From a virus: DNA of 64,000 bases. The stretch spans positions 1-64,000 of IMG/VR virus record IMGVR_UViG_3300044612_001255; one strand, 5' to 3'. Within the stretch, counting starts at the first letter, position 1. Every line of letters begins with the position of its first letter. Positions 1-56,795 of the stretch are shown piece by piece. Made by a program: the position numbers and the translations under genes. The notes under the pieces are model-generated. The model saw only the letters and a program-made list of their open reading frames with translations. It made no database searches and was not told the DNA's origin.

Positions 1-2
1 TC

Positions 3-455
3 CAGTCAAACGTTAAAGCAATGGCTACTGATATGATATTCTTAACAACTCTACTAGTTCTTACAACACAAATCATCCCAGCAATGGCACCAGATGATGA
101 TGAGGATAAAGCTGTAGTTAACCAACACAAGTTTGTCTCTAAGATTGGAGACAAACTACTTGATGAATTGATGTACTTCTACAATCCAACATCTATTCTA
201 AATCTTGTTGGTAGTGGACCATTTCCAGCATTCTCTTTGATAAATAATGCTGTGAAGACAATAGGAGGTACACTAGATGAATTATACGGAGTGCTAACTT
301 CAGATGAAGAGAGAATAGAAAAAGCAAAACCTTTGAAGTATTTCTTAAGAACATTCCCTATTACAAATCAAATAGTTGGATATCTACCAATGTTCTACCC
401 TGATATTGCAAAAGATCTTGGTATTAGAATGCAGAGTAATTACGGAGTTAGATAA
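3..455 (+). CDS. C-terminal part of a larger virion-type protein (5' end outside window)
   Basis: The reading frame is open from base 3 with no stop before the first Met at base 21, so this is most likely the C-terminal end of a gene that begins before the window. It has a hydrophobic stretch near the start (about residues 5-25 from the Met) and then a mixed helical tail ending in a conserved-looking aromatic/proline segment. I do not recognise the family. It lies directly upstream of a strong terminator and of the fibre genes, which suggests a structural protein at the end of the virion operon. If the Met at 21 were a genuine start, this would instead be a 144-residue membrane protein. The open upstream frame makes me prefer the partial-gene reading. 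Confidence 0.6.
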   Translation, partial: QSNVKAMATDMIFLTTLLVLTTQIIPAMAPDDDEDKAVVNQHKFVSKIGDKLLDELMYFYNPTSILNLVGSGPFPAFSLINNAVKTIGGTLDELYGVLTSDEERIEKAKPLKYFLRTFPITNQIVGYLPMFYPDIAKDLGIRMQSNYGVR

Positions 456-498
456 CCTATTGAGAAATAACTCAATAATCATTAGTTTTACATAACTA

Positions 499-550
499 CA
501 GAAAGTAAAAAACCTAGGAGCAATACTGTTTCTAGGTTTTGTATTTTCTG
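499..550. terminator. long hairpin terminator before the fibre genes
   Basis: Bases 499-517 and 532-550 form a 19-bp stem with one mismatch and one G-T pair around a 14-base loop. The A-rich left arm and T-rich right arm make it a plausible intrinsic terminator in both directions. It separates the gene ending at 455 from the fibre gene starting at 567. Confidence 0.75.
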
Positions 551-566
551 AAAACATAACAACAAC

Positions 567-3095
567 ATGGCAGAAGCATATTGCGGATCTGAACCTTGCC
601 CTTTATTCTTGAATTCCACTTGTGTGTTCTACACAGGTGAGAGTCTTCTTTATATAGGTGTACAAACAAATGACACTCTTGAGGCAATCATTATAAAGAT
701 TAACCAAGCATTCCAAAATACTGGGATTGGATACGCATTTACAAATGGATTGATACAACCTACACCATCTCAACCTGTACAGCTTGGTGGTGCATTGATA
801 CAGAACACTACTATTGGTGGAAACTTCACGCTAGCATTTACAGGAAACGTCCAAGCTGCTAAACACATCACCACTGGTGGAACATCTTCACAGTTTGTAA
901 AAGGTGATGGAACATTAGATTCAACAGCCTATCAACCAGCTGGCAATTACATGACTGGACTCTCTGGAGATGCAACAGCTTCAGGTCCTGGTGTAGCAGC
1001 TATGACGCTAGCCACTGTAAACTTTGCCTCTGGAACATTTGGTAATGGAAACACCATACCAATTGTAACAGTGAATGCAAAAGGTTTAGTTACAAACATA
1101 ACTCCTGTACCAGTTACTATACCACCACTACCATTAAACTTCATTGGTGATGTAGTTGGATCGGGATTCACAGGAAGCAACATCACTCTGCTATTGCAGA
1201 ATGTCAATCCAAACCCATACACCACCATCACTCCTCTAAAGTTTACAGTGAATGGTAAAGGATTGGTTACGTCTGCTTCCCCAATAACAGCTTCTGACAT
1301 TGTAAACATTCTTGGTTACTATCCAGGAACATCTGGAACTACAGGAACAAGTGGTACATCAGGTACAAGTGGTACCTCAGGTACAAGCGGAACAACAGGG
1401 ACAAGCGGAACCACTGGTACAAGCGGTACTAGTGGTACCAGTGGTACCAGTGGTACTAGCGGTACGACAGGTACTTCAGGGACAACAGGAACTAGTGGAA
1501 CTACTGGCACCAGTGGTACTAGTGGTACGAGTGGAACAACAGGTACGTCTGGCACAACAGGCACCAGCGGTACAACAGGAACTAGTGGTACAACAGGTAC
1601 TAGTGGCACCACTGGTACGAGCGGTACTAGCGGTACATCTGGAACTAGTGGAACGTCTGGTACAACAGGTACTAGCGGTACTACGGGAACTTCTGGTACA
1701 ACTGGTACATCAGGTACAAGCGGAACCACAGGTACATCTGGTACTACAGGTACTAGCGGTACTTCAGGTACATCAGGTACTAGTGGTACTACAGGAACAA
1801 GTGGAACCAGTGGAACAAGTGCAACCAGTGGAACTAGTGGCACAACAGGTACCTCTGGTACCTCTGCAACAAGTGGTACCTCTGCAACAAGTGGTACGTC
1901 TGGAACAGCAGGAACTACTGGAACCTCAGGTACATCTGGTGTAAGTGGTGACGAATATAGAACAACATCAACATCAACTTTCACTCTTGGTAATAGTGGA
2001 ACTATTACAGTGGGAACAGGGCTAGCTTACACTCCTGCACAATCTATTATTGTCGTATATGACACTAATAATTTCCAAGAATGCGAAATAATATCATATA
2101 ACTCAATTACAGGCGAACTTGTATTTGGAACACCCACTAGAACAGTTGGTTCTGGAACTTATTCTACATGGACTATTAACCTAGATGGTGCTAGCGGTGG
2201 AGACGGTTCTTCTGGTAGCAGCGGTACTAGTGGTACATCTGCTACTTCTGGAACAAGCGGAACAACTGGTACTAGTGGTACATCTGGTACTAGCGGTACA
2301 AGTGCAACAAGTGGGACAAGTGGTACTACAGGAACTTCTGGAACAAGTGGAACTACAGGTACTTCTGGTACAACTGGAACAAGCGGTACTAGTGGTACAA
2401 GTGGCACAACAGGAACAAGTGGTACAACAGGTACCTCTGGTACCACAGGTACATCAGGCACCACTGGTACAAGCGGTACAACTGGAACATCTGGAACTAC
2501 TGGTACTAGCGGTACAAGCGGTACCAGCGGTACAACAGGAACAAGCGGTACTTCTGGAACCACTGGTACTTCTGGTACTTCTGGAACTAGTGGTACAACA
2601 GGTACTAGTGGAACAACAGGTACTTCAGGTACAAGCGGAACCTCTGGTACTTCTGGTACTTCTGGTACGTCAGGTACAAGTGGTTTATCATCTTTATTTT
2701 ATGGTGAAAGTTTAAATTGTATAACTTTACCATTAACTACTACTACCACTACAACAGGAACACCAACTACTACTACAACTACAACAGCTGCATCTTGTAT
2801 TTTAACAGTATACTTTGATGGATCACAGTCTCCAGGAACTCAGGGTTGGAACAATTCTACTGATGCTTGTAACGGAACTGGAACTCCATTATCTGTTTAC
2901 TTTTCTAATGCTGGTGGTTGTCCTACAAACTTACAAGATGTATTCAATGATGGTAAGATAATCTATATAGATGTTGCTTTAACGACTCCCCTTGCTGGTA
3001 ATAGTAAATGGTATAAGAGTGTTTCATCTCCTAGTTCTGGTCAAGCAATTCTAGTAGATAATAGTGGATTTATAAACCAGATTCTAAATTGTTAA
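567..3095 (+). CDS. Gly-Thr-Ser repeat tail fibre protein 1 (collagen-like)
   Basis: This 842-residue protein is very probably a virion fibre. Residues 1-250 form a beta-rich head. Residues about 253-458 and 545-707 are perfect three-residue repeats GTS/GTT, a collagen-like Gly-X-Y pattern with no proline. Between them (about 461-543) sits a beta domain beginning GDEYRTTSTS. A poly-Thr linker (about 724-741) joins a C-terminal domain with several Cys and a terminal Cys. Thr codons vary freely within the repeats, so the repeat is kept at protein level rather than produced by slippage. The beta domain recurs in the next gene. The Thr/Ser density, with glycosyltransferases downstream, suggests O-glycosylation; that is inference. 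A triple-helical fold is also inferred from periodicity only. Confidence 0.85.
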   Translation: MAEAYCGSEPCPLFLNSTCVFYTGESLLYIGVQTNDTLEAIIIKINQAFQNTGIGYAFTNGLIQPTPSQPVQLGGALIQNTTIGGNFTLAFTGNVQAAKHITTGGTSSQFVKGDGTLDSTAYQPAGNYMTGLSGDATASGPGVAAMTLATVNFASGTFGNGNTIPIVTVNAKGLVTNITPVPVTIPPLPLNFIGDVVGSGFTGSNITLLLQNVNPNPYTTITPLKFTVNGKGLVTSASPITASDIVNILGYYPGTSGTTGTSGTSGTSGTSGTSGTTGTSGTTGTSGTSGTSGTSGTSGTTGTSGTTGTSGTTGTSGTSGTSGTTGTSGTTGTSGTTGTSGTTGTSGTTGTSGTSGTSGTSGTSGTTGTSGTTGTSGTTGTSGTSGTTGTSGTTGTSGTSGTSGTSGTTGTSGTSGTSATSGTSGTTGTSGTSATSGTSATSGTSGTAGTTGTSGTSGVSGDEYRTTSTSTFTLGNSGTITVGTGLAYTPAQSIIVVYDTNNFQECEIISYNSITGELVFGTPTRTVGSGTYSTWTINLDGASGGDGSSGSSGTSGTSATSGTSGTTGTSGTSGTSGTSATSGTSGTTGTSGTSGTTGTSGTTGTSGTSGTSGTTGTSGTTGTSGTTGTSGTTGTSGTTGTSGTTGTSGTSGTSGTTGTSGTSGTTGTSGTSGTSGTTGTSGTTGTSGTSGTSGTSGTSGTSGTSGLSSLFYGESLNCITLPLTTTTTTTGTPTTTTTTTAASCILTVYFDGSQSPGTQGWNNSTDACNGTGTPLSVYFSNAGGCPTNLQDVFNDGKIIYIDVALTTPLAGNSKWYKSVSSPSSGQAILVDNSGFINQILNC
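1327..2691 (+). repeat. Gly-Thr-Ser coding repeats in fibre 1
   Basis: Two blocks of nine-base-periodic coding repeat (about 1327-1945 and 2200-2691) encode GTS/GTT triplets, separated by a non-repetitive beta-domain segment. Synonymous codons are shuffled throughout. The long frames on the other strand (Val-Pro rich) and in the shifted frame (Val-Gln-Leu rich) are by-products of this repeat, not genes. Confidence 0.9.
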
Positions 3096-3139
3096 ATGAT
3101 TGCGTTAGCTGTCTAAAAACTTAAAATATTAATTTTAAA

Positions 3140-6100
3140 ATGCCATACTCTAACATAACAATAACAACTGATACAGGATTATCATTTATTGCTGGTCAAT
3201 TCATACAATTGATTGCTGACAGCAGCAATTACATTGTAGGTCAAGTAGTTTCTTATAATCCCGCTACTGGTGAATTAATATTTACTCCAAGTACATTCAT
3301 TGGTAGTGGTGAGTACTGTAATTGGGATGTTGTACTTTCTGGTGTTCCAGGAACTACAGGTTCTTCTGGTAGTAGTGGAACAAGCGGAACTTCTGGCACA
3401 TCAGGTACAAGCGGAACAGCAGGAACAACTGGAACCAGTGGTACAACAGGTACTAGCGGTACTTCTGGAACAAGTGGCACATCTGGTAGTGTAGGAACAA
3501 GCGGTACTTCAGGAACTACTGGTACATCGGGTACAAGTGGTACAAGAGGTACTAGTGGTACTTCAGGTACAAGCGCAACTAGTGGTACCTCTGGAACGAC
3601 AGGAACCAGTGGCACTACTGGTACTTCTGGCACTACTGGTACTTCTGGTACAACGGGTACATCTGGTACCAGTGGTACAAGTGCAACGTCAGGTACGAGT
3701 GGTAGCTCAGGTACTTCTGGAACCACTGGCACCAGTGGAACTAGTGGTACCACAGGCACGTCAGGTACTACAGGAACCTCTGGTACATCTGGAACCAGAG
3801 GAACGTCTGGAACCTCTGGTACCACTGGTACGAGTGGAACTACTGGTACTTCTGGTACCACTGGTACTAGCGGTACAAGTGGTACACGAGGAACTTCTGG
3901 CACTAGTGGTACATCTGCTACCTCTGGCACTAGCGGTACAACAGGTACTAGTGGTAGCTCTGGAACAAGTGGTACATCCGCTACTAGTGGAACATCTGGT
4001 ACAGCTGGAACTACAGGAACCTCTGGAACTAGTGGTATCTCTGGAGATAGATATAGAACAACTTCTACATCTTCTTTTACTTTAGGAAACAGCGGTACAA
4101 TAACTGTAGGTACAGGTTTAGCTTATACTGCTGCACAATCAATCATTATTGTTTATGACACTTCTAATTTCCAAGAGTGTGAAATAATATCTTACGATTC
4201 TAATACAGGCTCTCTTACATTTGGTGCCCCTACACGAACAGTGGGTGGTGGCACATACACTTCTTGGGTTGTCAATTTAGATGGTGCTAGTGGAGGCGAT
4301 GGTTCAAGTGGATCTAGCGGAACTAGTGGAACTTCTGCTACTTCTGGTACCAGTGGAACAACAGGAACTAGCGGAAGCAGTGGTACCAGTGGAACAACAG
4401 GAACATCTGGTACTTCTGGAAATAGTGGAAGCAGTGGAACCAGTGGTACACGAGGTACATCTGGAACTTCTGGAACAAGAGGTACTAGTGGTACTTCTGG
4501 TATAAATGGAACATCTGGCACAAGTGGTATTAATGGAACATCTGGAACTTCTGGAACTTCTGGAACCTCTGGTATAGATGGTACCAGTGGAACAAGTGGT
4601 ATTAATGGTACCTCTGGAACATCGGGTACTAGGGGTACCAGTGGAACTAGTGGTACTAGTGGTACCAGTGGAACTACAGGAACCAGCGGTACCTCTGGTA
4701 CTAGAGGCACTTCTGGTACAAGTGGTACTTCGGGTACTACTGGTTCAAGTGGTACTAGTGGTACAGCTGGGCAAGCAGGTGGAGTAAGATATAATTTTTC
4801 TACAACCACGACCAACGCAGATCCTGGCGATGGAATAGTTGCATATAATAACTCTACAATTGCTTCAGTAACTGAAATTTATATAGATAATTTAGACCAG
4901 TTAGGTAATACACAAACTGCATGGTACGATACTTGGGATGATAGTACAACAACCTCAGCTAGAGGCGTAATTGCACTATATAGTAGAGATAATGGTACAG
5001 TGGTAAATCAGTTTCAAGTTACAGGAGCTGTAACAGCAAATGTTGGATATTATACAATACCTGTTTCTTACATTAGCGGAACTCTTCCAACTAATGGTGC
5101 ACAATTAGCAACCATGTTCTCAAGAACTGGTAATGCTGGTACAACTGGTACCTCTGGAACTTCAGGTACTAGCGGGACAAGCGGTACCTCTGGGACAAGC
5201 GGAACAAGTGGTACTTCTGGTATAAATGGTATAAACGGTACGAGTGGTACAAGTGGTGTGAATGGTACCAGTGGGACATCAGGTACTAGTGGTACTAGTG
5301 GTACTAGGGGTACTAGTGGTACTAGTGGTACTAGGGGTACCAGTGGTACTAGTGGTACTAGTGGTACTAGTGGAACATCAGGTAGTACACCTGTTAATCA
5401 AGTGACAGGAACAGGGACAAGCGGAACAATTCCAGTATTTACTGGCAGCACAACTATTGGAAACAGTATTGTGCAATCAAATTCTACTCAAGTAAACATT
5501 GTTGGCAATGGCTCACAATTACTTTTTGATTCTTTGAGTGCAAGTAAATCTGGAGGAATTCAATACACAAATGATTTTGAATTATTAATAAATAATAGTA
5601 GAGGAACTGGAAGTGCTATTTATTTAGGAAATACAAATTTAGATTTTCATACCAACGTATCTGGAAATCCTAGACTTAGGATTACCGATGGGGGCAACGT
5701 GCTTATTGGAACGACAACGGACGCAGGCTTTAAGCTAGACGTTAACGGGACTGGGCGGTTTTCAAGTAGCGTGACGGCTGGGGGGACAAATTATTTGGTA
5801 AACACTTCAACAGGAACTGCAACAACTTATCAACGTATTTTAAACACAGGAGGTGATTTAATATTAGGTATAAATAATAGTGCTGGTAATTCTTTAGCAA
5901 GTGGAGGTTTATCTTATGCAACTATGATGTATAATAATACTAATACCGCTTTGCAATTTGGAACTAATACAGACATAAAATTAACCATCACCTCAGGCGG
6001 CAACGTAGGGATTGGGACGACTACTCCAGGACAAAGATTATCAGTATTCCAAGATACAAACGGGGATGCAAGATTATCTTTAACTAATCCTAACACAGGA

Positions 6101-6922
6101 GTATCAGCAAGAACATTTTTGTATACGATTACCACAGGTAACAGATATGTTGGTATGCTTGCTTATGGAGCTAATGCAACAGGTACAACAGTTGGATTAA
6201 GTAATGCAAGTTTAGGTATTTTAGAAGCTGGAGGTGATATAAGTAATTTTTTAATTAATTCCACAAATCCTATGGTATTTGGGGTTAATGGTTCTGAGCG
6301 AATGCGCATTAATTCAAATGGTTTTTTAAAAGCTAGTAATAATGGTGTTTTTTATGATTCTGCAAGTAGTTATCACGAATTAATGAGTAATCAAGGTAAT
6401 AATATAGCTTATTTATGGAATACCTCAGCTAATCCTTATGGCCCATATATAAGGTTTTCAGCTGCTGCGCCTAATAACGGTACTAATTATTACCTTTATT
6501 TTGATGACACCTCAGCAGCTAGATTTATAGTTTACTCAAATGGTGGAATTTCTAATTATCAGGCTAATGATACAAACCTTTCTGACGAAAGGACAAAAAA
6601 GGAAATTGCGCCTCTTGAATCTTATTGGGATAAATTTAAAAATATTGAAATTGTAAAATTCAAGTACAAAGACCAAACGCATGACGATTTTAATATTGGA
6701 GTTATTGCACAACAAGTTGAAAAAGTAGCTCCTGAATTTGTAGACGTAGACGGATGGACTAATAAAACCGAATCAAATAAAGATGCAATAATTAGTCAAG
6801 AAGAGCCAATAAAATCAATTTATACCGCTGACTTGCACCATGCAACTATTAAAGTACTTCAGGAAGCAATGGCAAAAATCGAAAAACTAGAAACAGAAAT
6901 AGATAAACTAAAAAACGTATGA
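3140..6922 (+). CDS. Gly-Thr-Ser repeat tail fibre protein 2 with C-terminal S74-type chaperone
   Basis: This 1260-residue protein is a second, longer fibre. Residues 1-70 are a divergent copy of the beta domain found in both fibres. GTS repeats run about 71-297, 383-545 and 667-750, with a full beta-domain copy at about 300-382 and a different globular domain at about 546-665. Residues about 750-1110 carry repeated GGNV-IGTTT blocks typical of beta-helical fibre shafts. The C-terminus (from about 1149) starts [12 protein letters not shown] and continues with a [10 protein letters not shown] motif and a terminal coiled coil. This is the signature of intramolecular S74 peptidase/chaperone domains, which trimerise fibres and often cleave themselves off. 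It is probably a receptor-binding fibre. The next gene overlaps its stop as ATGA. Confidence 0.9.
3352..5388 (+). repeat. Gly-Thr-Ser coding repeats in fibre 2
   Basis: Three repeat blocks (about 3352-4035, 4290-4775 and 5140-5388) encode GTS/GTT with occasional GTR, GIN and GSS triplets. Part of the third block is nearly identical at nucleotide level (repeated GGTACTAGT units around 5280-5370), so recent unequal exchange or slippage is likely there. Confidence 0.85.
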
Positions 6923-7278
6923 AAACAATCGAACCTGTCTCAATCTGGGACAACGGACAAACAGTAGAGGCAAAGATTCTAAATGCCTACGCTGTAAATG
7001 TTACACTAGGAACAAGTGCTACATTCTACTATCAGCTGTTTGCTGAAACTGTAGACCTAGCAGTTGGTCAACAAGTGGCACAAGGAAACTTGAGCATGAC
7101 TGGTGAGGCATACCAAGAATGGAATCAAGACGAATTTGCATGGGAATGGGTAGCAGCACAGCTGAACCTAACCATCACAGGTGACTATGTACCACCAGTA
7201 CCAACCACTACTACCACCACTACAGCTGTTCCAGAAACTACAACCACTACTACTACTACTACGGATATTGTAGAATAA
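6919..7278 (+). CDS. small virion protein with poly-Thr tail
   Basis: This 119-residue protein has a globular first part (about 1-92) rich in beta-forming residues, then a low-complexity tail of Pro-bounded Thr runs (about 95-116). Its start overlaps the fibre 2 stop (ATGA), implying translational coupling and a role in the same structure, such as a fibre accessory or decoration protein. Thr codons in the tail are mixed. The poly-Thr pattern is shared with the genes at 15937 and 17150 and with fibre 1, and resembles mucin-like O-glycosylated linkers. I do not recognise the globular family. Confidence 0.75.
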
Positions 7279-7303
7279 TTAAACAAATAAAAAACCAATA
7301 AGT

Positions 7304-7708
7304 ATGAAATTTAAACTATTTCAAATGTTTGAGCTTGAGCTAGAAATAGCTGGAGGCAAGAGAGAAGAATCATCAATTGTAGGATTGATGAATGAGAGTA
7401 TCAGCTTCAAAAACAAATATCTTCTACAGAAAGTTCTGAAGAAGATTGGTGAAGAGAAGGAGCAATACATGAAATCTGAGAAAGAGTTATTCACTAGTCT
7501 TGGTGCTGTTGAAAAAGATGGCAACCTTGTTATTGAAAACACTCTTGAGGATGGTTCTCCTAACCCAGCAATCCAAAAGCTTATTGAAGAAAGAACACAA
7601 CTTATGAACGTAGAAGTGGATGCTGGTGAACTAGATTTTAAAATCGAAGACTTTGATTTTAAATCAGAATCAACCTATCCAGTTTTCATGTTGCTTGCTT
7701 TCGATTAA
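7304..7708 (+). CDS. hypothetical helical protein, last gene of the left fibre operon
   Basis: This 134-residue protein has a Lys/Glu-rich helical centre (about 40-65), an acidic C-terminal half and a short hydrophobic end. I do not recognise the family. An AAAACCAATA element lies 8-17 bases upstream of its ATG, as before several other genes here. Its last 39 bases overlap the end of the convergent glycosyltransferase gene. That suggests the sugar cassette was inserted tightly against a pre-existing structural operon. Confidence 0.75.
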   Translation: MKFKLFQMFELELEIAGGKREESSIVGLMNESISFKNKYLLQKVLKKIGEEKEQYMKSEKELFTSLGAVEKDGNLVIENTLEDGSPNPAIQKLIEERTQLMNVEVDAGELDFKIEDFDFKSESTYPVFMLLAFD

Positions 7709-10681
7709 GGCTATAACATCCCCACTTGTTATGCTTGACTGGCATTCATATTGTCTGTCAGTTCCAGCATGAACAGGACACCAGTCCCAACTCTTATCAA
7801 ACTTATACTTGGGACTATTCCAACAACCACTACATACACTCTTCTTCACAGGACGTATGCAGGAAAACTCATGTCCTTCCTCTGTGAAGTTTGCTATCAT
7901 CACAACAGGCTTATTCATAGCCCAAGCTAACCAGCTTAACCCACTAGATAGTCCTATAAAGAACTCGCTATAGCTTATAGCGTCCATCGCACTCTGCAAT
8001 GATTTATCTTCTAGTGGTTCACAATTCTCAAATGGATTATCTTCTTTAGACACGTTAATCACTCTGTAATTTTTTGAATGCAGATAGTGTATTAACTCTT
8101 GCCAAGCTTCTCTTGTCCAGAACTTACAACCAGCTGTTGAATTGGTGGCTATTGTAACAATTTTATTATCAAATTTGTTACAAACAGTGTGTGCAATTCG
8201 TGGTCTAATCTCTTCATATTCAAGTCCTAGGATGTTCGTAGCAGCTTTCTGAAGTGGTATAGTGTTTGGTAGGATGGGTTCCTTAGTGCTATCGTAAAAC
8301 CATCCAATAGAATACATTCCTTTGATGTTGTTAACCACTGTACCTGGGTCTACAAACTCAAGCTCTGGATACACATCCTGGAAAAGAAAGTTCTTGAATG
8401 TGCTTACAACAACATGACAGTTGTGTTTTTTCTTGAACTCAAGTGCGTATGGCATCCAAGCTATTGTATCTCCTAATGAAGAGCTCTCTAGTGATATGTA
8501 GACACGTTGGTTTTCATAGTTGAGTTCAAAGTGGTAGATGAGATAGTTATTTTCCCACACCTTTATTCTCCAATCAGTGAACCATCTTCTACTAAGTCTT
8601 ATCCAATTATTTGACCTGATGGTGTTCTGATAAATGCATATATCATTCTCATCGTAGAATCTTACTAAATAATCTTTGTTTGATCTACCAGTGATTTCAA
8701 GAAATGGTTCACCTACAAAGTTTACATCAATATTAATCTTCTGAAGCATCATCTCATTAGTGAGTACAGTGTTGTAGATGTACATCTGACTCACCTTGAA
8801 ATTAAAAAATGCTTCACTAAGTGGTTTATTCTTTGGTGCTTTGATCGATAGAAGCTGCTCCAATACATCATTTTCTTTCAGGGGCGTAATCCAATCATCA
8901 AACATTCCCACATACTGTGGAAGGTTTCTTGCAAGAATAGGCAATCCGTGACTCGCTGCTTGACGAACGACTAATGGATTGCATTCCCATGTAGAATTAA
9001 ACATGAACACGTCACAGGCTATCATAAACTTGTCTACATCACTACGCTCTCCCCACACATGAACATTATCTGGAAGATTTTGCATTAATGGTTCCCAGTA
9101 GTGCTTGAAGTTAACAGCTTGGTTTCCTACAAAGTGAAACTCCATCTCAGGAAGTTGTCTAGCTATCTCCACTCCCTCTCCTTGATTTTTTCCTGGTGTC
9201 CATAGTCCCACATTGAGAACATGTTTCTTTAATGGATTCATACCAAGCTTCACCTTTTCATAAAGCTTTTCTGCTTTACTTGGAATTTTATTCTCTATTG
9301 GATATTCTAGAACAAACTTTGCAGAAGGCATCTTTCCAAATGTTCCTAGATGATATGGTGTACAGAAGATGTATGCATCAGGGTGATACTTCTTCTCTAT
9401 ATCAGGTTTGAAATATACATTGTGACAAGTCTCTACAATCTTCCAAGTTCTATCATTGTCGTACAGATTGTTCAATAGATCAACAGGAAAGTTATTGACA
9501 CTATCCTCCACCATCTCTTCTATGTGCACAAGGTGTACATTGTGTCTCTTGATGATGTCTATCAATTCCATCTTGTTATCCACAAGTGTGTACATCTTGT
9601 GGACAAGTTTTTTGATTTCATTCTTCTGTACAACGTATTCATCGCTGTGATTAGAATATTCAACAACAATAATCTCTACATCAAATCCTTCTAAAGCCTG
9701 TATCCTCTTTAGAAGAACTGATGGCATCCCACCTGTTGACAAGTGTGGGGCTAGATATAAAATTTTAAACTTGTTATGCTGGTTGACAACCTCACGCATT
9801 TTTTTCATTTTGTCAACTCGTTTCTCTCCATGTATGACAAGAACATCTTCTTTCTTTTCAGGAATTTTTTTCCAATCCTCCACGAGATAAGTTTCTCCAA
9901 TGTATCTGTATTCATTGTACACTTTCTTTGTCTCTTCTACAGATCCATTAGTGTAAAGACATGGTAAACCATCAATATGATTATATTTCCACAATAAAAC
10001 ATTCAGCAAAGTCTCCTCATGGAATGGTGTATAAAACTCTCTATTTTTAATTATTTCAGAGTGCTTGCTTATCGTTTTCCATTCTTTAATAAATGATAGA
10101 GATGGTTGACCAGCTATAAAAAGATTTGTTGTTCTATAAAGTTTTCTTACAGATTGATCTATGCCCAAAAGCTGACAAACATTATACTCTAGTGTTCCTG
10201 TCATGTCTTCTCTTGTCTCACAACCACCACGACCATCGTAAAGCATCCATTCATATATCCCCTCTGTGGCAAGCACGTATGGCTCACCATTGTACATGTG
10301 GAATATTCTGTCTAGATTTTCTGTAGCAATAGAATCACTGTCTACATACACAATAGTGTCTGCATGATTTAATAAAGCATCTTCAATGATTGCTATGCGT
10401 TCTACAAGAATGTTGTAGATGTCTTTCTTTCCACGCTTGATGTAGAAGTTTCCTTGCTCATCTTTATTGTAAAGATCTTTTTCAGACAGATCGATGTACC
10501 AGGGAACAATAGTGACATTCTTATCTATGTAATAGTCATTATTAAAATTACTACCATCTCCCATCAAATACACCAACACTGGCACATCACTGACTGCTGT
10601 AATGGATAGTGCACACTGTTCTAGTGTTGGTAGATATGCTTCTGTTCCATAGAGAACGTATGCTCTTTTTATTTTTTGCAT
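7670..10681 (-). CDS. triple glycosyltransferase fusion: GT-A, GT4-like and TibC/Aah-type heptosyltransferase
   Basis: At 1003 residues this is three enzymes in one chain. Residues about 1-280 are a GT-A (GT8-like) domain with the metal-binding YVDSDS near residue 115. Residues about 304-620 are a GT4-like domain, with a Gly-rich HLSTGG start and the E-containing C-terminal signature (STWECNPLVV near 560). Residues about 724-1003 resemble the GT9-like O-heptosyltransferases that modify bacterial autotransporters (Aah/TibC). They begin with SLESSSLGDTIAWMPYA and end with four cysteines (950, 953, 968, 980) placed like the iron-binding finger of that family. That family transfers sugar to Ser/Thr of repetitive beta-strand surface proteins, which fits the Thr/Ser-rich fibres next door. 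The substrate here is inference. It is the last gene of a four-gene minus-strand unit and overlaps the upstream gene by 13 bases. Confidence 0.85.
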   Translation of the reverse strand: MQKIKRAYVLYGTEAYLPTLEQCALSITAVSDVPVLVYLMGDGSNFNNDYYIDKNVTIVPWYIDLSEKDLYNKDEQGNFYIKRGKKDIYNILVERIAIIEDALLNHADTIVYVDSDSIATENLDRIFHMYNGEPYVLATEGIYEWMLYDGRGGCETREDMTGTLEYNVCQLLGIDQSVRKLYRTTNLFIAGQPSLSFIKEWKTISKHSEIIKNREFYTPFHEETLLNVLLWKYNHIDGLPCLYTNGSVEETKKVYNEYRYIGETYLVEDWKKIPEKKEDVLVIHGEKRVDKMKKMREVVNQHNKFKILYLAPHLSTGGMPSVLLKRIQALEGFDVEIIVVEYSNHSDEYVVQKNEIKKLVHKMYTLVDNKMELIDIIKRHNVHLVHIEEMVEDSVNNFPVDLLNNLYDNDRTWKIVETCHNVYFKPDIEKKYHPDAYIFCTPYHLGTFGKMPSAKFVLEYPIENKIPSKAEKLYEKVKLGMNPLKKHVLNVGLWTPGKNQGEGVEIARQLPEMEFHFVGNQAVNFKHYWEPLMQNLPDNVHVWGERSDVDKFMIACDVFMFNSTWECNPLVVRQAASHGLPILARNLPQYVGMFDDWITPLKENDVLEQLLSIKAPKNKPLSEAFFNFKVSQMYIYNTVLTNEMMLQKINIDVNFVGEPFLEITGRSNKDYLVRFYDENDICIYQNTIRSNNWIRLSRRWFTDWRIKVWENNYLIYHFELNYENQRVYISLESSSLGDTIAWMPYALEFKKKHNCHVVVSTFKNFLFQDVYPELEFVDPGTVVNNIKGMYSIGWFYDSTKEPILPNTIPLQKAATNILGLEYEEIRPRIAHTVCNKFDNKIVTIATNSTAGCKFWTREAWQELIHYLHSKNYRVINVSKEDNPFENCEPLEDKSLQSAMDAISYSEFFIGLSSGLSWLAWAMNKPVVMIANFTEEGHEFSCIRPVKKSVCSGCWNSPKYKFDKSWDWCPVHAGTDRQYECQSSITSGDVIALIESKQHENWIG

Positions 10682-11649
10682 GGTAGATATCTTGCTGAAA
10701 TTAATTGTTCTTTTTTATATGCCTTGATAATTAAATTTTGCTGATCAATTTGATCATTAGTGTACAGAATGTAGGTGATTTCACAAGATAGATCTTCGAA
10801 ATAATATTTAATCATCACTTCATTATTTTCATTACACAAGTCAATCCAAACATCTTCTAAGTCATCGAAGCATGTAAACTTAATTATTGAAGGTTCACGA
10901 ACATATGCCATCAATTCTCCTCCAGAAAAATGATTGAGCATGTCAAGTAGATCAGTACGCTCCTTTGCAGAATAATTGCTCACGTGTACAATGAAATCAC
11001 CTGGTTGCCAGATGTTATTGTTTACACTCTTGTTGTGAAAGTTTATAAATGGATTATTGACATACCAAAATCTATTAAGAAGATGCTCCTCAACTACTTT
11101 TACACGCTTTGAAAATTGTGGCTTGTTGATGGTAACTCTTGTTTGTCTACCCTCATGATCAAATTTATTAATGTCCATGTCAGCTGGCCAATCACTTGCT
11201 TCCCAGATGTCTTCTAGGATAGCCATTCCCATCTCATCGTTCTTTACAAAAAATTGACTGGTTATTACGCAATCTGTACCCATCTCATTTAATACAGGTG
11301 TGTCAATTGCTTTTATGTTGTGAGCTGGAATAATGAATGAGTATTCATCACTGATAAAAGTTTCTAACATTTTGGAATGATCCATGATGATGCAATCTAC
11401 ATCTATGTAAAAAATCCAATCGTACAAAGGAAGTGCATCAATACAAGCAATAATTTTATTCCAGGCTGCATACCTATCCATTCTTTCAGACTCCTGCTTA
11501 TCGATGTGCAGCGTGTATCCATGTAGCTTGCAATAGTGCTCAATATTTTCAAAAACACTAACTCTCGCCATGTCTGAGTAAGCATCATTGAATGATACTA
11601 CAACACCAATATTATACTTTTTTAACAAACCAGCTTCCGAAGAACTCAT
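10669..11649 (-). CDS. GT-A glycosyltransferase (galactosyl/mannosyltransferase GT34-like)
   Basis: This 326-residue protein has an N-terminal fold start (YNIGVVVSFNDAYSDMARVS), a conserved RYAAWNKI segment and a DxD metal/nucleotide-sugar site in FYIDVDCIIM (about 81-90). These match GMA12/MNN10-type (GT34) enzymes. The C-terminal 100 residues look like a separate small domain. It overlaps the upstream methyltransferase by 38 bases and the downstream fusion by 13, so the set is probably translated together. Donor and acceptor sugars cannot be read from sequence. Confidence 0.75.
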   Translation of the reverse strand: MSSSEAGLLKKYNIGVVVSFNDAYSDMARVSVFENIEHYCKLHGYTLHIDKQESERMDRYAAWNKIIACIDALPLYDWIFYIDVDCIIMDHSKMLETFISDEYSFIIPAHNIKAIDTPVLNEMGTDCVITSQFFVKNDEMGMAILEDIWEASDWPADMDINKFDHEGRQTRVTINKPQFSKRVKVVEEHLLNRFWYVNNPFINFHNKSVNNNIWQPGDFIVHVSNYSAKERTDLLDMLNHFSGGELMAYVREPSIIKFTCFDDLEDVWIDLCNENNEVMIKYYFEDLSCEITYILYTNDQIDQQNLIIKAYKKEQLISARYLPCKK

Positions 11650-12226
11650 CAGTGATGTATGAATTTAGACCATTAGATTTACAAAACTCTTCTACAGCTG
11701 GATTAACTCCAAACATTCCAAAGTATCCATTCTCATTCCAGATGTGCTTGTCGATACCATTCTTGTCAAACTTAGGATCATTCCACCAGTCCATCTTTAT
11801 ATAGTCGTGTCCACACAACCATCCACCTTTCTTCACCTTGGGCCACCATAAAGCAATGTCCTGCTTGACAAATGCGTATGCGTGATTAGCATCGATGTAT
11901 GCAAAGTCTAAACTCTCGTCAGCAAAGATGTCTGCGCCTACCTCAGAGGTAGCTCTGATCATGACACCTCTATCCTCAAGACCTTGAATGTTGTTCATTG
12001 CATCTTTGAAGACACCCTGTTCAAAGTTTGCATGGTTACTGGAATCAACATATTCATCTCCCAGTGGTCGCCACACATCAAGCATGTATAGTGTACCATC
12101 CCACATCTTTAGGACTTCTATAGACAGTTCACCTTTAAAGGTTCCCACTTCAATACCCTTACCGTTAGGTATTTGACTCAACATTTCTTTAAGAAACTCA
12201 AGTCTGTTTTTTTCAACTTGTATCAT
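11612..12226 (-). CDS. class I SAM-dependent methyltransferase (Methyltransf_24 type)
   Basis: This 204-residue enzyme shows the glycine-rich SAM site GIEVGTFKGELS (about 24-35), an acidic residue after strand 2 (MLDVW), and the LDFAYIDANHAY motif followed by WPKVKKGGWLCGHDY. These are typical of small O-methyltransferases that act on sugars and that accompany phage and bacterial glycan genes. Given the surrounding glycosyltransferases, it probably methylates a glycan added by them. It overlaps both neighbours. The exact substrate is unknown. Confidence 0.8.
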   Translation of the reverse strand: MIQVEKNRLEFLKEMLSQIPNGKGIEVGTFKGELSIEVLKMWDGTLYMLDVWRPLGDEYVDSSNHANFEQGVFKDAMNNIQGLEDRGVMIRATSEVGADIFADESLDFAYIDANHAYAFVKQDIALWWPKVKKGGWLCGHDYIKMDWWNDPKFDKNGIDKHIWNENGYFGMFGVNPAVEEFCKSNGLNSYITDEFFGSWFVKKV

Positions 12227-13170
12227 TTTTTAAAATTTATATAACCCATTTCTGCAAATTTTGGAAAATTTAATTCATTAATTGAAAATGATTTGAATAT
12301 TGTTTGGACACCTTCAACAATCTCAACGTTAAATAAATCTCCCACATTTACTTGTTGATAATAATATCCGTTAGGTGGAATGTTTCCTCCATCGTTTCCA
12401 TTTATTTTAAAACTGATATCAGTTGGATTATCTGGAGAGTTTGAAATCCACAAGAAATATCTATCATCATCAATATCTTTGATGACTTCAGCCTTACGAT
12501 GGTTCGCTATGATGTTGATTTCACTAGTCTGTAATAATTCTTCACTTGACTGGTTAATGATTAGGCAATGATCTTCTTTGTATCTGAAGCTTGTGTAAAA
12601 AATATCTTCAAGTGTTGGATGAACATTGTATTTTCGAATATCATCAGCTTTAGATGGTAGTTGTGCATTGTTTAAAAAGAAATGTGGGTTTCCTCCAAAC
12701 ATCAAGGACTCATACCTTGCATTAGTCTCTTCATTAATTTTAAAAAGAATTATTTCCTTTTCTTCACAAGACATTTGTGAGGCAAGAGAAGTTAGTTTAT
12801 TAACATCTTCTAAAGAAATAATGTTGTCGCTCTCCATGTAATAAAAAAATCCATAACCTAGAACATCTAAAAGTCCTATTGAATTTTTCATATTTCTAGT
12901 AATTGGAACAATGTGTCCTCGTCCATTAATTTGAACAGAGAACACATCAGAATGATACCAGTAAACAGGGGTGAGGTCAATAGGGTCTAGAACATTTTCT
13001 CCATCGTAGATGTAATAGTCTACAAGTTCAACGATGTGTTGAGGGAGTGCTTTGTGGGATGTTAAAAAAATATCCCAACCAAATCTCTTGACACTTTCTA
13101 TGCAAGAGACGAGCATTTCTTCTGTAGTTTTATCAGTGGGAAATGTCCCTATGATAATTGCCTTCTTCAT
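12223..13170 (-). CDS. glycosyltransferase-like protein (GT-A fold), first gene of sugar cassette 1
   Basis: This 315-residue protein begins AIIIGTFPTDKTTEEMLVSC. It has a GYGFFYYMESDNIIS segment (about 104-118) that looks like the acidic metal site of a GT-A glycosyltransferase, with ESD in place of a canonical DxD. The last 100 residues are beta-rich and may be an accessory domain. It is the first gene of the minus-strand cassette and its stop overlaps the next start as ATGA. The family assignment is moderate; no clear GT family could be named. Confidence 0.6.
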   Translation of the reverse strand: MKKAIIIGTFPTDKTTEEMLVSCIESVKRFGWDIFLTSHKALPQHIVELVDYYIYDGENVLDPIDLTPVYWYHSDVFSVQINGRGHIVPITRNMKNSIGLLDVLGYGFFYYMESDNIISLEDVNKLTSLASQMSCEEKEIILFKINEETNARYESLMFGGNPHFFLNNAQLPSKADDIRKYNVHPTLEDIFYTSFRYKEDHCLIINQSSEELLQTSEINIIANHRKAEVIKDIDDDRYFLWISNSPDNPTDISFKINGNDGGNIPPNGYYYQQVNVGDLFNVEIVEGVQTIFKSFSINELNFPKFAEMGYINFKK

Positions 13171-13646: not shown

Positions 13647-14399
13647 ATGAAAAACTTATCAAAAGAAGAACTGCTAAGTAGGATGGAGGCAATTAATCGT
13701 AGTAATGCGATTATTTACTTTGACCTAAATGGCTTTATTCTTGGAATGAATTCGATATTCTTGAAGGCAATGGGATTTCAAGAAAAGGAACATGATAAGT
13801 TAATAGGCAAGCATCACAGCATTTTTGTGTCCTACGAGTACTCAAAGTCTGATGACTACAAAAAGTTTTGGGAGACCTTAGCAAGTGGTCAATTTTATGA
13901 GGGTGAATTTGAAAGGAAAAAAGTAGATGGTAGCCCAATTTATTTGCAAGCAACCTATAACCCAATCTTTGACGATAACGGTATAATTACAAAAGTAATG
14001 AAGATAGCAACGGACATTACTGAAACCATTATCAGCAAGAATAAAATTAATGAGCTATCAAGGACGTTGCAGGTTGAGTTAGATAACACTAACAAGTTGA
14101 AACTAGCTATTGAAATTGAAAAGGACGCAGCCGTTAATGACTTAGATGCTACAATTAAGAAAAGCCAAAACGAGTTAATCAAAGTAATCGTAAAGTCTGC
14201 TTTATTTGTAATTATGAGTGTAGGCTTTATTACAACCATAATGTACTCCTTTGCTATTCTATCAAATAAAGACACACAGATTATTGGTTCAACATGGAGC
14301 AACATGTTCTCAGTGTTGTTGACCAATGCCTTTTCTATAGTAGGCACAATTATGGGAATTAAATATGCAACATCAGAAGATAAAAAATCAAAGGAATGA
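13647..14399 (+). CDS. membrane-anchored PAS-domain sensor within the lysis cassette
   Basis: This 250-residue protein has an N-terminal PAS domain (about 15-128). It closely follows the PAS/PAC pattern of chemoreceptor- and BdlA-type sensors: AIIYFDLNGFILGMNSIFLK, a GKHHSIFV motif, a GEFERKKVDG segment, LQATYNPIFDDNG and the PAC end KIATDITET. A coiled coil (about 135-180) follows. Then come two transmembrane helices (about 184-205 and 215-238) separated by a short loop, and a charged tail. There is no kinase, cyclase or MCP output domain; the output is the membrane hairpin itself, which resembles a small holin. Its stop overlaps the endolysin start (ATGA). Such PAS domains usually bind haem, flavin or small ligands; the ligand here is unknown. 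Sensing of host redox or energy state to time lysis is a hypothesis. Confidence 0.85.
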   Translation: MKNLSKEELLSRMEAINRSNAIIYFDLNGFILGMNSIFLKAMGFQEKEHDKLIGKHHSIFVSYEYSKSDDYKKFWETLASGQFYEGEFERKKVDGSPIYLQATYNPIFDDNGIITKVMKIATDITETIISKNKINELSRTLQVELDNTNKLKLAIEIEKDAAVNDLDATIKKSQNELIKVIVKSALFVIMSVGFITTIMYSFAILSNKDTQIIGSTWSNMFSVLLTNAFSIVGTIMGIKYATSEDKKSKE

Positions 14400-25862: not shown

Positions 25863-26429
25863 TTAATTATGCACGAATAAAACTTTATTAATCTTGTGAA
25901 TTCCTTGTAATGGAAATTTCTTTTTAAAAGTTTCTATAAACATCCCATCAGCAGAATACGCAACGCCAAGATATATTTCTTTGGCTAAATCTGTACGTGT
26001 AGCAAATGCTCCCATGTCGATTTGACCATCTCCTGGGGCACATTTGAAACATGTGTAATGGTAATGTGAATGCACCATATCCCAGTAAATCATACCAGCA
26101 TCTACATCACATAAATACTTTATTTCTGATACAAAGTTAGGAGTGTAATAATTATCATCACCTGTCATAATCACATACTTTGCCTCACTCTGCTGCTTAC
26201 CATACTCTCTTGGTGTATGACCCCAGTCATTGTATCTTTTGTCCATCTTTGACCATCTGATTCTATCATCCTGAAAGCTTTCTACAAGCTTTACATTATT
26301 TTCATCATCAGGATTATCAATGACAACATGAGCTCCCCAATCTGCATTAGTTTGTGCAACTAATGAAGCTAGCATACATTTTAATGGAGCAGGTCGATTA
26401 TACGTTGGAATTATGAAGTCCACTAACAT
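25863..26429 (-). CDS. family 2 glycosyltransferase
   Basis: This 188-residue protein begins VDFIIPTYNRPAPLKCMLAS (about 3-22), the standard GT2 start. It continues with a nucleotide-site Asp (VVIDNPDD) and the TGDDNYY metal motif (about 93-99). It is short for GT2, consistent with a minimal single-domain enzyme. It overlaps the upstream GT2 by 32 bases. Confidence 0.85.
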   Translation of the reverse strand: MLVDFIIPTYNRPAPLKCMLASLVAQTNADWGAHVVIDNPDDENNVKLVESFQDDRIRWSKMDKRYNDWGHTPREYGKQQSEAKYVIMTGDDNYYTPNFVSEIKYLCDVDAGMIYWDMVHSHYHYTCFKCAPGDGQIDMGAFATRTDLAKEIYLGVAYSADGMFIETFKKKFPLQGIHKINKVLFVHN

Positions 26430-27159
26430 ATTCTTCTAATTGTTTTTGGTAATCAAGTTCCCAATGAGGATTCAAATTTACATCTCCTGTAGGGATTAAT
26501 TCTTTTTTTCTAAGAATCTCAATATGATTTGAATGTCTCTCAATAACATTAGCTCTGTCGCTAGTGTCTGTACCCATTCCACTCATGTGATAACCTCTTC
26601 CTCCCCACATGTAGAACCAGCTAGCGTCTTTATTAGGCATCTCAACAAACTTTCTACCACCATAATGGGCAAGAGCATTTATAAATGTCATATCGTAACC
26701 AGCGTTTTCTATAGGGTGTCCACCAATAGCTTTCCATGCAGACTTCCTAAACACAATACCTGAGTTACCTATCCATCCAACATTTGTAATACTTGAGTTG
26801 TTGTAATAAACACCTGTGGCCCAGTGAAGAATATTAACATCATCTGTAAATTGTTCTGCAACATTCTTTAAGTGCCAAGGCATAGCAACATCATCATCGT
26901 CCCATTGACAAATGATTTCTCCTCCACATAATTCTGTAGCATAGTTTTCCTTATCCCCAATAGTTTTAAATGTTTCATCTAGATTGTATATTCTTACATC
27001 TGGATGATCAAACACAAGCTTCTGTAGAGGATAGTCATTTACAATCACTAGTTCCTTTTCTCCAGGATAATCCTGAAGAAGAAAAGAGTGGAGAGACTCC
27101 TCGAGAAACTCCACTCTTCCATAAGTGATCATCTTACAAGAGATCAATGGATAGTTCAT
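26398..27159 (-). CDS. family 2 glycosyltransferase
   Basis: This 253-residue protein has a GT2 N-terminal domain (ISCKMITYGRVEFLEESLHS), the acidic motif CQWDDDDVAMPWHLKN (about 87-102) and a GNSGIVFRKSAW acceptor-side segment. It is the first GT of cassette 2. Its start overlaps the stop of the small upstream gene (27156). Confidence 0.88.
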   Translation of the reverse strand: MNYPLISCKMITYGRVEFLEESLHSFLLQDYPGEKELVIVNDYPLQKLVFDHPDVRIYNLDETFKTIGDKENYATELCGGEIICQWDDDDVAMPWHLKNVAEQFTDDVNILHWATGVYYNNSSITNVGWIGNSGIVFRKSAWKAIGGHPIENAGYDMTFINALAHYGGRKFVEMPNKDASWFYMWGGRGYHMSGMGTDTSDRANVIERHSNHIEILRKKELIPTGDVNLNPHWELDYQKQLEEYVSGLHNSNV

Positions 27160-38891: not shown

Positions 38892-39901
38892 GGTATTATT
38901 AGTTTTTGTTTTAGATAGTGTTCTATAATTTGCATTCCATACTTCTTTGCCAGATCTGCCCAATCTTTGATTCCTTCTTGTAGATAGTACCTTGGTACAT
39001 TACAATAATCAAAGTTGAACATCTCTGTTACCATTTTAGAATTCTTCACACCTGGTACATCACTGTCAAAAGAAAGGATTTGGCTGCTTGAATTGTGTTT
39101 CAAGAAGTCAATATTGTCTTCAGAGAAGCATGCCACTCCTTCGTTTTGAACAGCACATGAATGAGGATAAATCTTCTTCATCACCATGTAGTCTTTCTTA
39201 CTCTTGTTTATGAAAGCCATCTTGGTTTTGTCAAGATTATCTTTGCCATCCATAGCAGATATTGGAACATTGTTTGGAAACCATTTAAAATCCTTATTAA
39301 ATGGTCTGTAAATCTTCCAATGTCCATCATAAAAGTAACCAAACCTAAGTTCAGTTTCTTTTAGATGAACAGCTCTTCTGTTCAGGTAGAGCTTCTTAAT
39401 AGAATAAACATTATTCTGCTTTAGATCTTCTATGTCTTGATGGTATTGGTTCCAGTATTCTAGCTCTTCGTTAGTGAACTTTCTAGCAATCACTTGAATA
39501 TGTGAATACTTCTTTTCCAACTTCTCAGGCTGTTCATACTTAGAAACAATCTCTACGTGACTAGGTAGATCATCTCTCTTCTTTAGTCTAATTCCTAGAT
39601 TAAAATCTCTATCAATCATTTCCAGACATTCATTATGCCCTACATTGAATAGCTGCTTTATGAAATCAAAGCATCCTCCTCTGTAGTGTGGATCTGAAAA
39701 ATCAAGATAGAATAATCTACCATCTTTGGAATAGATTGTAAAAGAGGGCCTAGACTCATTTCTGAATGGAGAATAAGTTGTTCTATTAACCTCCCATTTC
39801 TTATTAGGCATGTACCATCTGAATATATCATACTCAGATATTTTAGAAAGGATGGTTTCAAAATTTAATTGTTCGAATACTTTTTTCTCCCCAGTAATCA
39901 T
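38888..39901 (-). CDS. DnaG-type primase (Toprim), atypical zinc domain
   Basis: This 337-residue protein has an N-terminal CHC2-like fold without the cysteines (CPFHNEKTPS replaced by YSPFRNESRPSF, about 42-53; GRLFYLDF and GGCFDFIKQLF follow). The Toprim domain includes ACFSEDNIDFLKH (glutamate motif) and ILSFDSDVPGVKNS (the DxD motif, about 278-291). It should synthesise primers for the DnaB-type helicase and PolB replisome encoded on the same strand. The lack of zinc ligands is notable but occurs in phage primases. Confidence 0.85.
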   Translation of the reverse strand: MITGEKKVFEQLNFETILSKISEYDIFRWYMPNKKWEVNRTTYSPFRNESRPSFTIYSKDGRLFYLDFSDPHYRGGCFDFIKQLFNVGHNECLEMIDRDFNLGIRLKKRDDLPSHVEIVSKYEQPEKLEKKYSHIQVIARKFTNEELEYWNQYHQDIEDLKQNNVYSIKKLYLNRRAVHLKETELRFGYFYDGHWKIYRPFNKDFKWFPNNVPISAMDGKDNLDKTKMAFINKSKKDYMVMKKIYPHSCAVQNEGVACFSEDNIDFLKHNSSSQILSFDSDVPGVKNSKMVTEMFNFDYCNVPRYYLQEGIKDWADLAKKYGMQIIEHYLKQKLIIP

Positions 39902-40290
39902 TGATAATTCACATATTCTTTTACCTCGTTTATTCTAGATCCCATTGCAGCGTTGATTTTACTTTTCATTTCAAATCGTCTGTCGTTAAGGAAATAAACA
40001 CTTCTGGCTTTTGCAATAAATTCTTCATCAAATTGTTTACTAGCTTCCATTTTTCTCAGGTCATCTTCTACATCCCAGAGATTTTTGTTTACTATCAGAA
40101 GAAGATCATATAGCTCTTCTACTTCTTTGTTCTCTAAAAAGGGTGTTGCTACATCCATTAACTCTTGTAGCTCATCCTTTACCATTGCTAGCTTCTCTGT
40201 GTCGCTGATCATGACACGTTTAATATTGAGGATGCTCACTTTATCAAGTAGCTCCCCAATGCTTCCAGGTATCCAAATTACTTTTGCCAT
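39898..40290 (-). CDS. DUF6165-like helical protein
   Basis: This 130-residue protein has the pattern PGSIGELLDKVSILNIKRVM (about 8-27), VNKNLWDVEDDLRKME (about 68-83), then FDEEFIAKARSVYFLNDRRF (about 87-106), a conserved order in small helical proteins often found beside sugar or replication genes. The DUF name is from memory. It overlaps the primase start by four bases. Confidence 0.7.
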   Translation of the reverse strand: MAKVIWIPGSIGELLDKVSILNIKRVMISDTEKLAMVKDELQELMDVATPFLENKEVEELYDLLLIVNKNLWDVEDDLRKMEASKQFDEEFIAKARSVYFLNDRRFEMKSKINAAMGSRINEVKEYVNYQ

Positions 40291-56463: not shown

Positions 56464-56795
56464 TGGCTGCTCCAAAGAAAACTACGTACATTAATACAGA
56501 GCTTGATTGGGCAGAGGAGCAGCTTTCTAGCTGGAAGCAATATGTTGATGCCAATCCCATGCATGAGCTTAAGGATAGGATTGAATGGAAACCTACAGCT
56601 AAGGGTGGAATGTTGCCTATGGTGATTGCCAGTATTGAGAGTCAGGGTAAGTTTATTCAGGAGACAATGAAGAACTATCTAGCTCTTCTTGAGGTGGTGG
56701 ATAAGCTGAGAGAAAAGGAAGAATCTAAAGTGGAAATACGTGGTAATGGTGAGCTTGGCTCAATGGCTGAAGATTTCCTTAAAGGTAGACGATGA
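56463..56795 (+). CDS. possible terminase small subunit (110 aa)
   Basis: This is a helical protein directly before TerL with a four-base overlap. It has TELDWAEEQLSSWKQYVD and a long helical C-terminal half (IQETMKNYLALLEVVDKLRE). Position and size fit a small terminase, but no HTH motif is clear. Confidence 0.45.
   Translation: MAAPKKTTYINTELDWAEEQLSSWKQYVDANPMHELKDRIEWKPTAKGGMLPMVIASIESQGKFIQETMKNYLALLEVVDKLREKEESKVEIRGNGELGSMAEDFLKGRR

Follow-up and report, generated by a model that had tools for sequence, protein, structure and literature searches.

A TibC-type candidate O-glycosyltransferase linked to Gly-Thr-Ser collagen-like proteins in phages and bacteria

Results

Gly-Thr-Ser fibres and an enzyme gene at the phage locus

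The virus record IMGVR_UViG_3300044612_001255 is 108,291 bp long, and its first 64,000 bases were analyzed here (hereafter the window). The window encodes two collagen-like fibres built on Gly-Thr-Ser (GTS) triplets and, on the opposite strand, a 1003-residue enzyme whose C-terminal third resembles the heptosyltransferases TibC and Aah; the enzyme gene is convergent with the fibre genes and lies 0.75 kb from them (Table 1). A first-pass annotation of this DNA had proposed that the phage O-glycosylates its own Thr/Ser fibres. When only runs of five or more were counted, Gly-X-Y triplets numbered 110 in fibre 1 and 152 in fibre 2 (262 in total), with an unbroken phase of up to 55 triplets. The Thr+Ser share of the X and Y positions was 0.98 and 0.88, respectively, X being Thr in 107/110 and 130/152 triplets and Y being Ser in 76/110 and 106/152. 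Proline and charged residues were nearly absent from these positions, and the runs were interrupted. The GTS triplets are encoded by many different 9-mers (29 for 74 triplets in fibre 1 and 36 for 97 in fibre 2), which argues for selection on the protein and against simple slippage of the DNA as the source of the pattern. The triplet counts and Pfam Collagen matches bear out the annotation's description of two fibres composed largely of GTS, and the poly-Thr tails that it listed are real, occurring in fibre 1 and in the 119-residue protein.

Table 1 Features of the window. Fractions of enzyme-positive and enzyme-negative genomes refer to the 20 near-complete genomes described in the text.
Feature	Position	Strand	Evidence or distribution
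Collagen-like fibre 1, 842 aa	567..3095	+	PF01391 E=2.9e-47, 158.7 bits (cut-off 27.2)
Fibre 1, main triplet blocks	nt 1326-1820, 2313-2690	+	
Fibre 1, poly-Thr linker	close to C-terminus	+	
Collagen-like fibre 2, 1260 aa	3140..6922	+	PF01391 E=1.3e-60, 201.4 bits (cut-off 27.2)
Fibre 2, triplet blocks	nt 3341-4051, 4346-4777, 5129-5389	+	
Fibre 2, terminal Peptidase_S74 chaperone	about 6581-6742	+	PF13884 E=2.6e-13
119-aa protein, C-terminal poly-Thr	6919..7278	+	4/10 enzyme-positive, 4/10 enzyme-negative genomes
134-aa protein, 3' end overlapping enzyme gene	7304..7708	+	phrog_1401; 2/10 enzyme-positive, 2/10 enzyme-negative genomes
Enzyme, 1003 aa	7670..10681	-	
TibC-type domain (beta-barrel, GT-B core, iron finger), aa 640-1003	7670..8764	-	TIGR04414, PDB 4rap, Foldseek
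GT4 domain, aa about 300-620	8822..9784	-	PF13692 40.3 bits, PF00534
N-terminal GT-A-like domain, aa 1-290	9812..10681	-	DxD = DSD (YVDSDSI); fold class inferred
GT34-like glycosyltransferase	10669..11649	-	PF05637 44 bits (cut-off 23); only this genome of 20
Methyltransferase, Methyltransf_24	11612..12226	-	PF13578 58 bits; 2/20 genomes
315-aa protein	12223..13170	-	no family match; only this genome of 20
GT2 glycosyltransferase	26401..27159	-	10/10 enzyme-positive, 4/10 enzyme-negative genomes
DUF6165 protein	39901..40290	-	8/10 enzyme-positive, 0/10 enzyme-negative genomes; 29 kb from enzyme

Domains and conserved residues of the enzyme

The C-terminal domain scored 250.8 bits against TIGR04414 (hepto_Aah_TibC; cut-off 200) and matched PDB 4rap with E=2.2e-41; the protein also matches GT9 (PF01075, 32.4 bits). 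Foldseek aligned an AlphaFold2 model (pLDDT 86.3) with crystal structures of TibC (about 370 columns; E=1.9e-27, TMt 0.82-0.84), and the alignment to 4rap showed the N-terminal beta-barrel and GT-B core fold of the bacterial autotransporter heptosyltransferases (BAHTs). The annotation had read the enzyme as a GT-A, GT4 and TibC-like unit. Family matches support the latter two parts, and the GT-A assignment is suggested by a DxD motif; the N-terminal approximately 290 residues had no match in family-profile searches. This GT-A-like domain is missing from two-domain and stand-alone relatives. In the GT4 domain the EX7E motif reads ECNPLVVRQ, with Gln replacing the second Glu that most relatives keep, so the domain may be impaired in the window enzyme. 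One uncultured phage protein in UniProt is already named "Glycosyltransferase Aah/TibC".

Asp110 and three of the four sugar-binding residues, Thr226, Lys230 and Trp305 (TibC numbering), were kept in all 46 distinct phage domains compared, Asp738 of the window enzyme corresponding to the catalytic base Asp110. The iron-finger residues Cys339, 342, 358 and 370 were also kept in 46/46 (Cys950, 953, 968 and 980 in the window). Residue 300 is Ser in the phage domains; AAH, an enzyme that takes either epimer of ADP-heptose, also has Ser there (PMC4358343). Two features were lost: Arg286, an adenine contact tied to ADP-sugar specificity, is Thr in 43, Ala in two (including the window) or Val in one of the 46 domains, and the beta-hairpin thumb is missing, with 29 residues instead of 39 over TibC 250-288. 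With the catalytic base and iron finger kept and the thumb and Arg286 lost, the phage domains form a clade sister to the autotransporter heptosyltransferases. No autotransporter gene adjoins the window enzyme, whose neighbours are the fibres and accessory genes.

Co-occurrence in crAss-like relatives

The source of the window is a freshwater phage that belongs with crAss-like phages by its DNA polymerase gene and its genes for terminase, portal and major head protein. The terminase is 31% identical to that of Cellulophaga phage phi17:2 and 24-30% identical to those of crAss-like phages, and the portal and major head proteins have PHROG matches. Relatives were collected by terminase, not by fibre or enzyme, giving 19 records that are 90 kb or longer. 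The enzyme was found in 9/9 relatives with a Thr/Ser collagen and in 0/10 without (p=1.1e-5), or in 10/10 and 0/10 when the window is included (20 near-complete genomes). All nine enzyme-positive relatives had many collagen matches, and the Thr+Ser share of the collagens in enzyme-positive genomes was mostly 0.72-0.98. Of the 10 enzyme-negative genomes, four carry a single short collagen whose Thr+Ser share is 0.03-0.07 and the others carry none, indicating that the enzyme is linked to composition and not to collagen as such. Among 645 open reading frame (ORF) clusters, the TibC-type gene alone matched the Thr/Ser-collagen trait perfectly; the DUF6165 gene was the runner-up. In a tree of 18 core genes the trait changed three times, fibre and enzyme switching together each time. 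The close pair G009 and G012 illustrates such a change: many of their structural proteins are 96-99% identical, and G009 has the enzyme and a GTS fibre, whereas G012 has neither. Their fibre orthologues keep a 304-residue stretch at 80% identity, and the gene for the 1128-residue enzyme is absent from G012. Stand-alone TibC domains (358-367 residues), found in G013, G015 and bacteria, were still paired with repeats; the GT4 and GT-A domains thus appear optional and more likely to extend the sugar.

Co-occurrence in wider viral samples

For sampling in the reverse direction, a nucleotide pattern encoding six Gly-Thr-x (GTx) triplets was used to pick viral contigs of 40 kb or more. TIGR04414 matches above the cut-off occurred in 16 of the 38 GTx-sampled contigs, compared with 1 of 23 sampled by Gly-Pro-x and 0 of 14 random contigs. 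The single positive Gly-Pro-x contig was rejected as a counter-example, since it also holds a 750-triplet GTS fibre. Seen from the enzyme, 26 distinct TibC loci had complete flanks, and 21 of these held Thr/Ser repeats within them, against none of 80 random loci, which were shorter (mean 8 kb) than the TibC loci. The annotation had named co-occurrence of GTS fibres and TibC-like genes across phages as a check on its proposal, and the link was found in several independent samples.

GT4 enzymes in general were rejected as the linked factor: a GT4 match was present in 2/12 GTS contigs and 6/16 controls, and this lack of enrichment makes the link specific to the TibC domain. A phage profile detected no weak, hidden TibC homologues in the TibC-negative GTS contigs. 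Absence of the enzyme is uninformative for G010 and G014 (collagen at the contig end) and for G029 (collagen about 3 kb from the end). The 91-kb contig G046, which has GTS fibres and no TibC domain, encodes a GT2, a GT4, a UDP-GlcNAc 2-epimerase, a DegT aminotransferase and a hexapeptide transferase directly after one GTS fibre (L627, 4949-17453), and this cluster may offer another way of glycosylating fibres.

A fibre-enzyme pair is also carried by a 735-kb phage and by the cultured Microcystis phage Mel-JY01, which has a tail sheath and a T4-like capsid protein; in the latter, 185 triplets lie at 2-3049 and the enzyme at 4750-8430. The Mel-JY01 fibre is a 1016-residue collagen-like ORF (L711, PP395634.1; T+S 0.83) that is unannotated in the record, where opposite-strand genes are called instead.

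Bacterial homologues

The nearest cellular homologues fall into two sets, thumb-bearing and thumb-less, which a tree separated. Thr/Ser Gly-X-Y repeats were present in the 8-kb flanks of 15/20 thumb-less but 0/55 thumb-bearing loci (p=7e-12; 80 loci in total, five unclassified, L651 counted as thumb-bearing because of its 39-residue thumb). The distance from the end of the repeat-protein gene to the enzyme gene that follows is 25-110 bp in several Methylococcaceae loci, and elsewhere the two are mostly within a few kb. A short length (about 10-37 triplets) and a signal or lipoprotein-like N-terminus are seen in many of the bacterial partners. One thumb-less enzyme (L640, 6682-7011) lacks nearby Gly-X-Y repeats and has a Ser-rich (SSSSG) repeat protein about 1 kb away.

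In a single-order sample of 151 genomes, the GTx6 pattern occurred in 5 of the 6 genomes with the thumb-less class, as assigned from bit scores of about 304-327 versus 654-663, and in 3 of the 145 others (p=5e-7); enzyme and repeat genes were separated by 0.55-0.75 kb in three genomes. In a class sample of 369 genomes, G560 alone among the non-seed genomes has the enzyme; it is among the three with the pattern, and the pair is 214 bp apart.

Neighbouring genes and other features of the window

The annotation had placed two further glycosyltransferases and a methyltransferase beside the enzyme. The GT34-like and Methyltransf_24 genes are consistent with this, but a second glycosyltransferase is unsupported, the 315-residue protein having no family match. 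Given their distribution (Table 1), these three genes are accessories at most. The DUF6165 protein is a possible remote partner in glycosylation.

Among phage records, the terminase nearest to that of the window (56792-58816) is 40% identical to it and comes from Leptolyngbya phage Lbo-JY46. A cyanobacterium would be an unexpected host for a crAss-like phage, so the host entry of Lbo-JY46 deserves a check. Beside the endolysin gene, at 13647-14396, lies a predicted PAS-domain protein (PAS_9 E=4e-10) with apparent membrane segments, and a PAS sensor within a phage lysis region is unusual.

Discussion

Proposed function and alternative explanations

These results suggest that the TibC-type domain is an O-glycosyltransferase acting on the GTS and Gly-Ser-Ser repeats of the neighbouring fibre or secreted repeat protein, which we consider likely. 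With less assurance, but still on balance, we propose that unrelated phages and bacteria share, in the thumb-less sister clade, a system dedicated to glycosylating Gly-Thr/Ser repeats, which makes proline-free glyco-collagens from a donor that is not necessarily ADP-heptose. The loss of the thumb and Arg286 with retention of the catalytic residues would fit an active O-glycosyltransferase with a different acceptor geometry and perhaps a different donor. The annotation's proposal is thus upheld as far as an enzyme linked to the fibres, in phages and also in bacteria, is concerned, whereas decoration of Thr alone is not favoured: characterized TibC and AAH modify Ser, not Thr (PMC4358343), and the Y position is mostly Ser, which by analogy makes Ser in Y a likelier site than Thr.

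The enzyme, encoded opposite to the fibres, would work in the cytoplasm of the host while virions are being assembled, drawing its sugar donor from host pools and adding the first sugar to repeat hydroxyls, most likely at Ser in Y. Lacking the thumb that closes the dodecamer ring of TibC, it would probably function on the extended repeat chain in the form of a dimer or small oligomer. Where GT4 and GT-A domains are fused to the enzyme, they and the variable neighbouring genes could then extend or modify this sugar. The sugar itself might stabilize a proline-free helix, shelter the fibre from proteases or antibodies, or serve in receptor binding, just as the stiffening, host mimicry and evasion named by the annotation are conceivable roles.

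Several points weigh against this proposal. Long GTS fibres sometimes occur without TibC, and G046 has three. The three independent changes in the crAss-group tree give a sign test p of 0.25, which is not significant, and the nearness of fibre and enzyme inside crAss-like genomes is modest (p=0.03). Characterized BAHTs act on beta-helix repeats, not on Gly-X-Y, and with the adenine contact Arg286 lost, ADP-heptose may not be the donor.

Three other explanations were weighed. Phage glycosyltransferases commonly alter host surface polysaccharide, causing seroconversion or phage exclusion, and fibre regions are swapped as modules; the enzyme could act on the host surface in this way, its link to the fibre reflecting only a host-range cassette exchanged as a block, and G009 and G012 do differ in fibre and enzyme together, plus other genes. 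We nevertheless regard this as improbable, because the link is to Thr/Ser composition and not to collagen or glycosyltransferases generally, the bacterial enzyme is often a single-domain gene beside a repeat protein, and the nearest characterized relatives modify proteins. Slightly more improbable still is that the enzyme's target lies elsewhere in the virion, in the poly-Thr tails or another tail protein, with GTS repeats merely marking a fibre type. Poly-Thr runs are commoner in most enzyme-positive genomes, but G012, G019 and G020 have 13-23 such runs and no TibC gene, and what bacterial partners have in common is mainly the Gly-Thr/Ser repeat. Poly-Thr tracts were accordingly rejected as an enzyme-linked substrate, and this part of the annotation's glycosylation idea falls.

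The remaining alternative concerns the form of the product. The repeats could be glycosylated yet serve as a flexible, mucin-like spacer and not a triple helix, the sugar conferring protease resistance or solubility. X and Y positions almost devoid of proline and charge, the interrupted fibre runs and the short, lipoprotein-like bacterial partners would suit such a spacer; the strict Gly-X-Y phase suits a collagen-like trimer, and the S74 chaperone on fibre 2 is typical of trimeric fibres. We hold the spacer to be a serious possibility that falls somewhat short of an even chance, a judgement that overlaps with the one given above for glycosylation of the repeats, as both hold the enzyme-substrate claim.

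GTS fibres recur in environmental phages, and the open-access literature, to which our searches were confined, yielded no biochemical explanation for them. Nor did it yield a description of a TibC-type enzyme paired with GTS repeats, or anything relevant on heptosyltransferases with collagen-like proteins or on crAss-like phages with collagen and glycosyltransferases. If the fibres are glycoproteins made by a dedicated enzyme, this would show how collagen-like proteins can be built without proline or hydroxyproline and provide a co-occurrence signature predicting glycosylated tail fibres. A single enzyme clade would then also connect surface proteins of phages with those of bacteria. The pair in the cultured phage Mel-JY01 makes the idea testable.

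Comparison with known systems

The window enzyme shares with BAHTs (TibC, Aah; TIGR04414) the fold, the catalytic Asp, Thr226/Lys230/Trp305, the four-Cys iron finger and the N-terminal beta-barrel (PMC4358343); in both cases the gene is also paired in the genome with one for a repetitive partner rich in Ser. Unlike BAHTs, the phage enzymes lack the thumb, carry Thr, Ala or Val for Arg286 and are often fused to GT4 and GT-A domains, and the partner is a Gly-Thr/Ser-repeat protein, not an autotransporter. Virus-encoded collagen glycosylation has a precedent in Mimivirus, which encodes collagen-like proteins and the collagen-glycosylating enzyme L230 (PMC9614988); L230, however, is an unrelated bifunctional enzyme for hydroxylysine glucosylation in a eukaryotic virus. 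Mycobacteriophage Che8 and its relatives are cited in PMC11256854 as a precedent for phage-encoded glycosylation of virion proteins, but these are capsid proteins modified by other glycosyltransferases, and that source mentions no collagen repeats. The stability of Riftia cuticle collagen is, as cited in PMC11766948, associated with glycosylated Thr; being an animal protein with an unrelated enzyme, it offers a functional analogy only. In Clostridioides difficile, the gene for the glycosyltransferase SgtA adjoins that for the collagen-like protein BclA3, whose triplet repeats SgtA O-glycosylates (PMC7157674). SgtA is a GT-A enzyme with tetratricopeptide repeats that places GlcNAc on Thr of Gly-Pro-Thr repeats (PMC7157674), whereas the enzyme domain linked to the fibres here is a TibC-type GT-B. 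Because two BAHT features are absent and SgtA is a different kind of enzyme, the window system is a member of neither system, although it would work like both the BAHT-autotransporter pairs and SgtA-BclA3.

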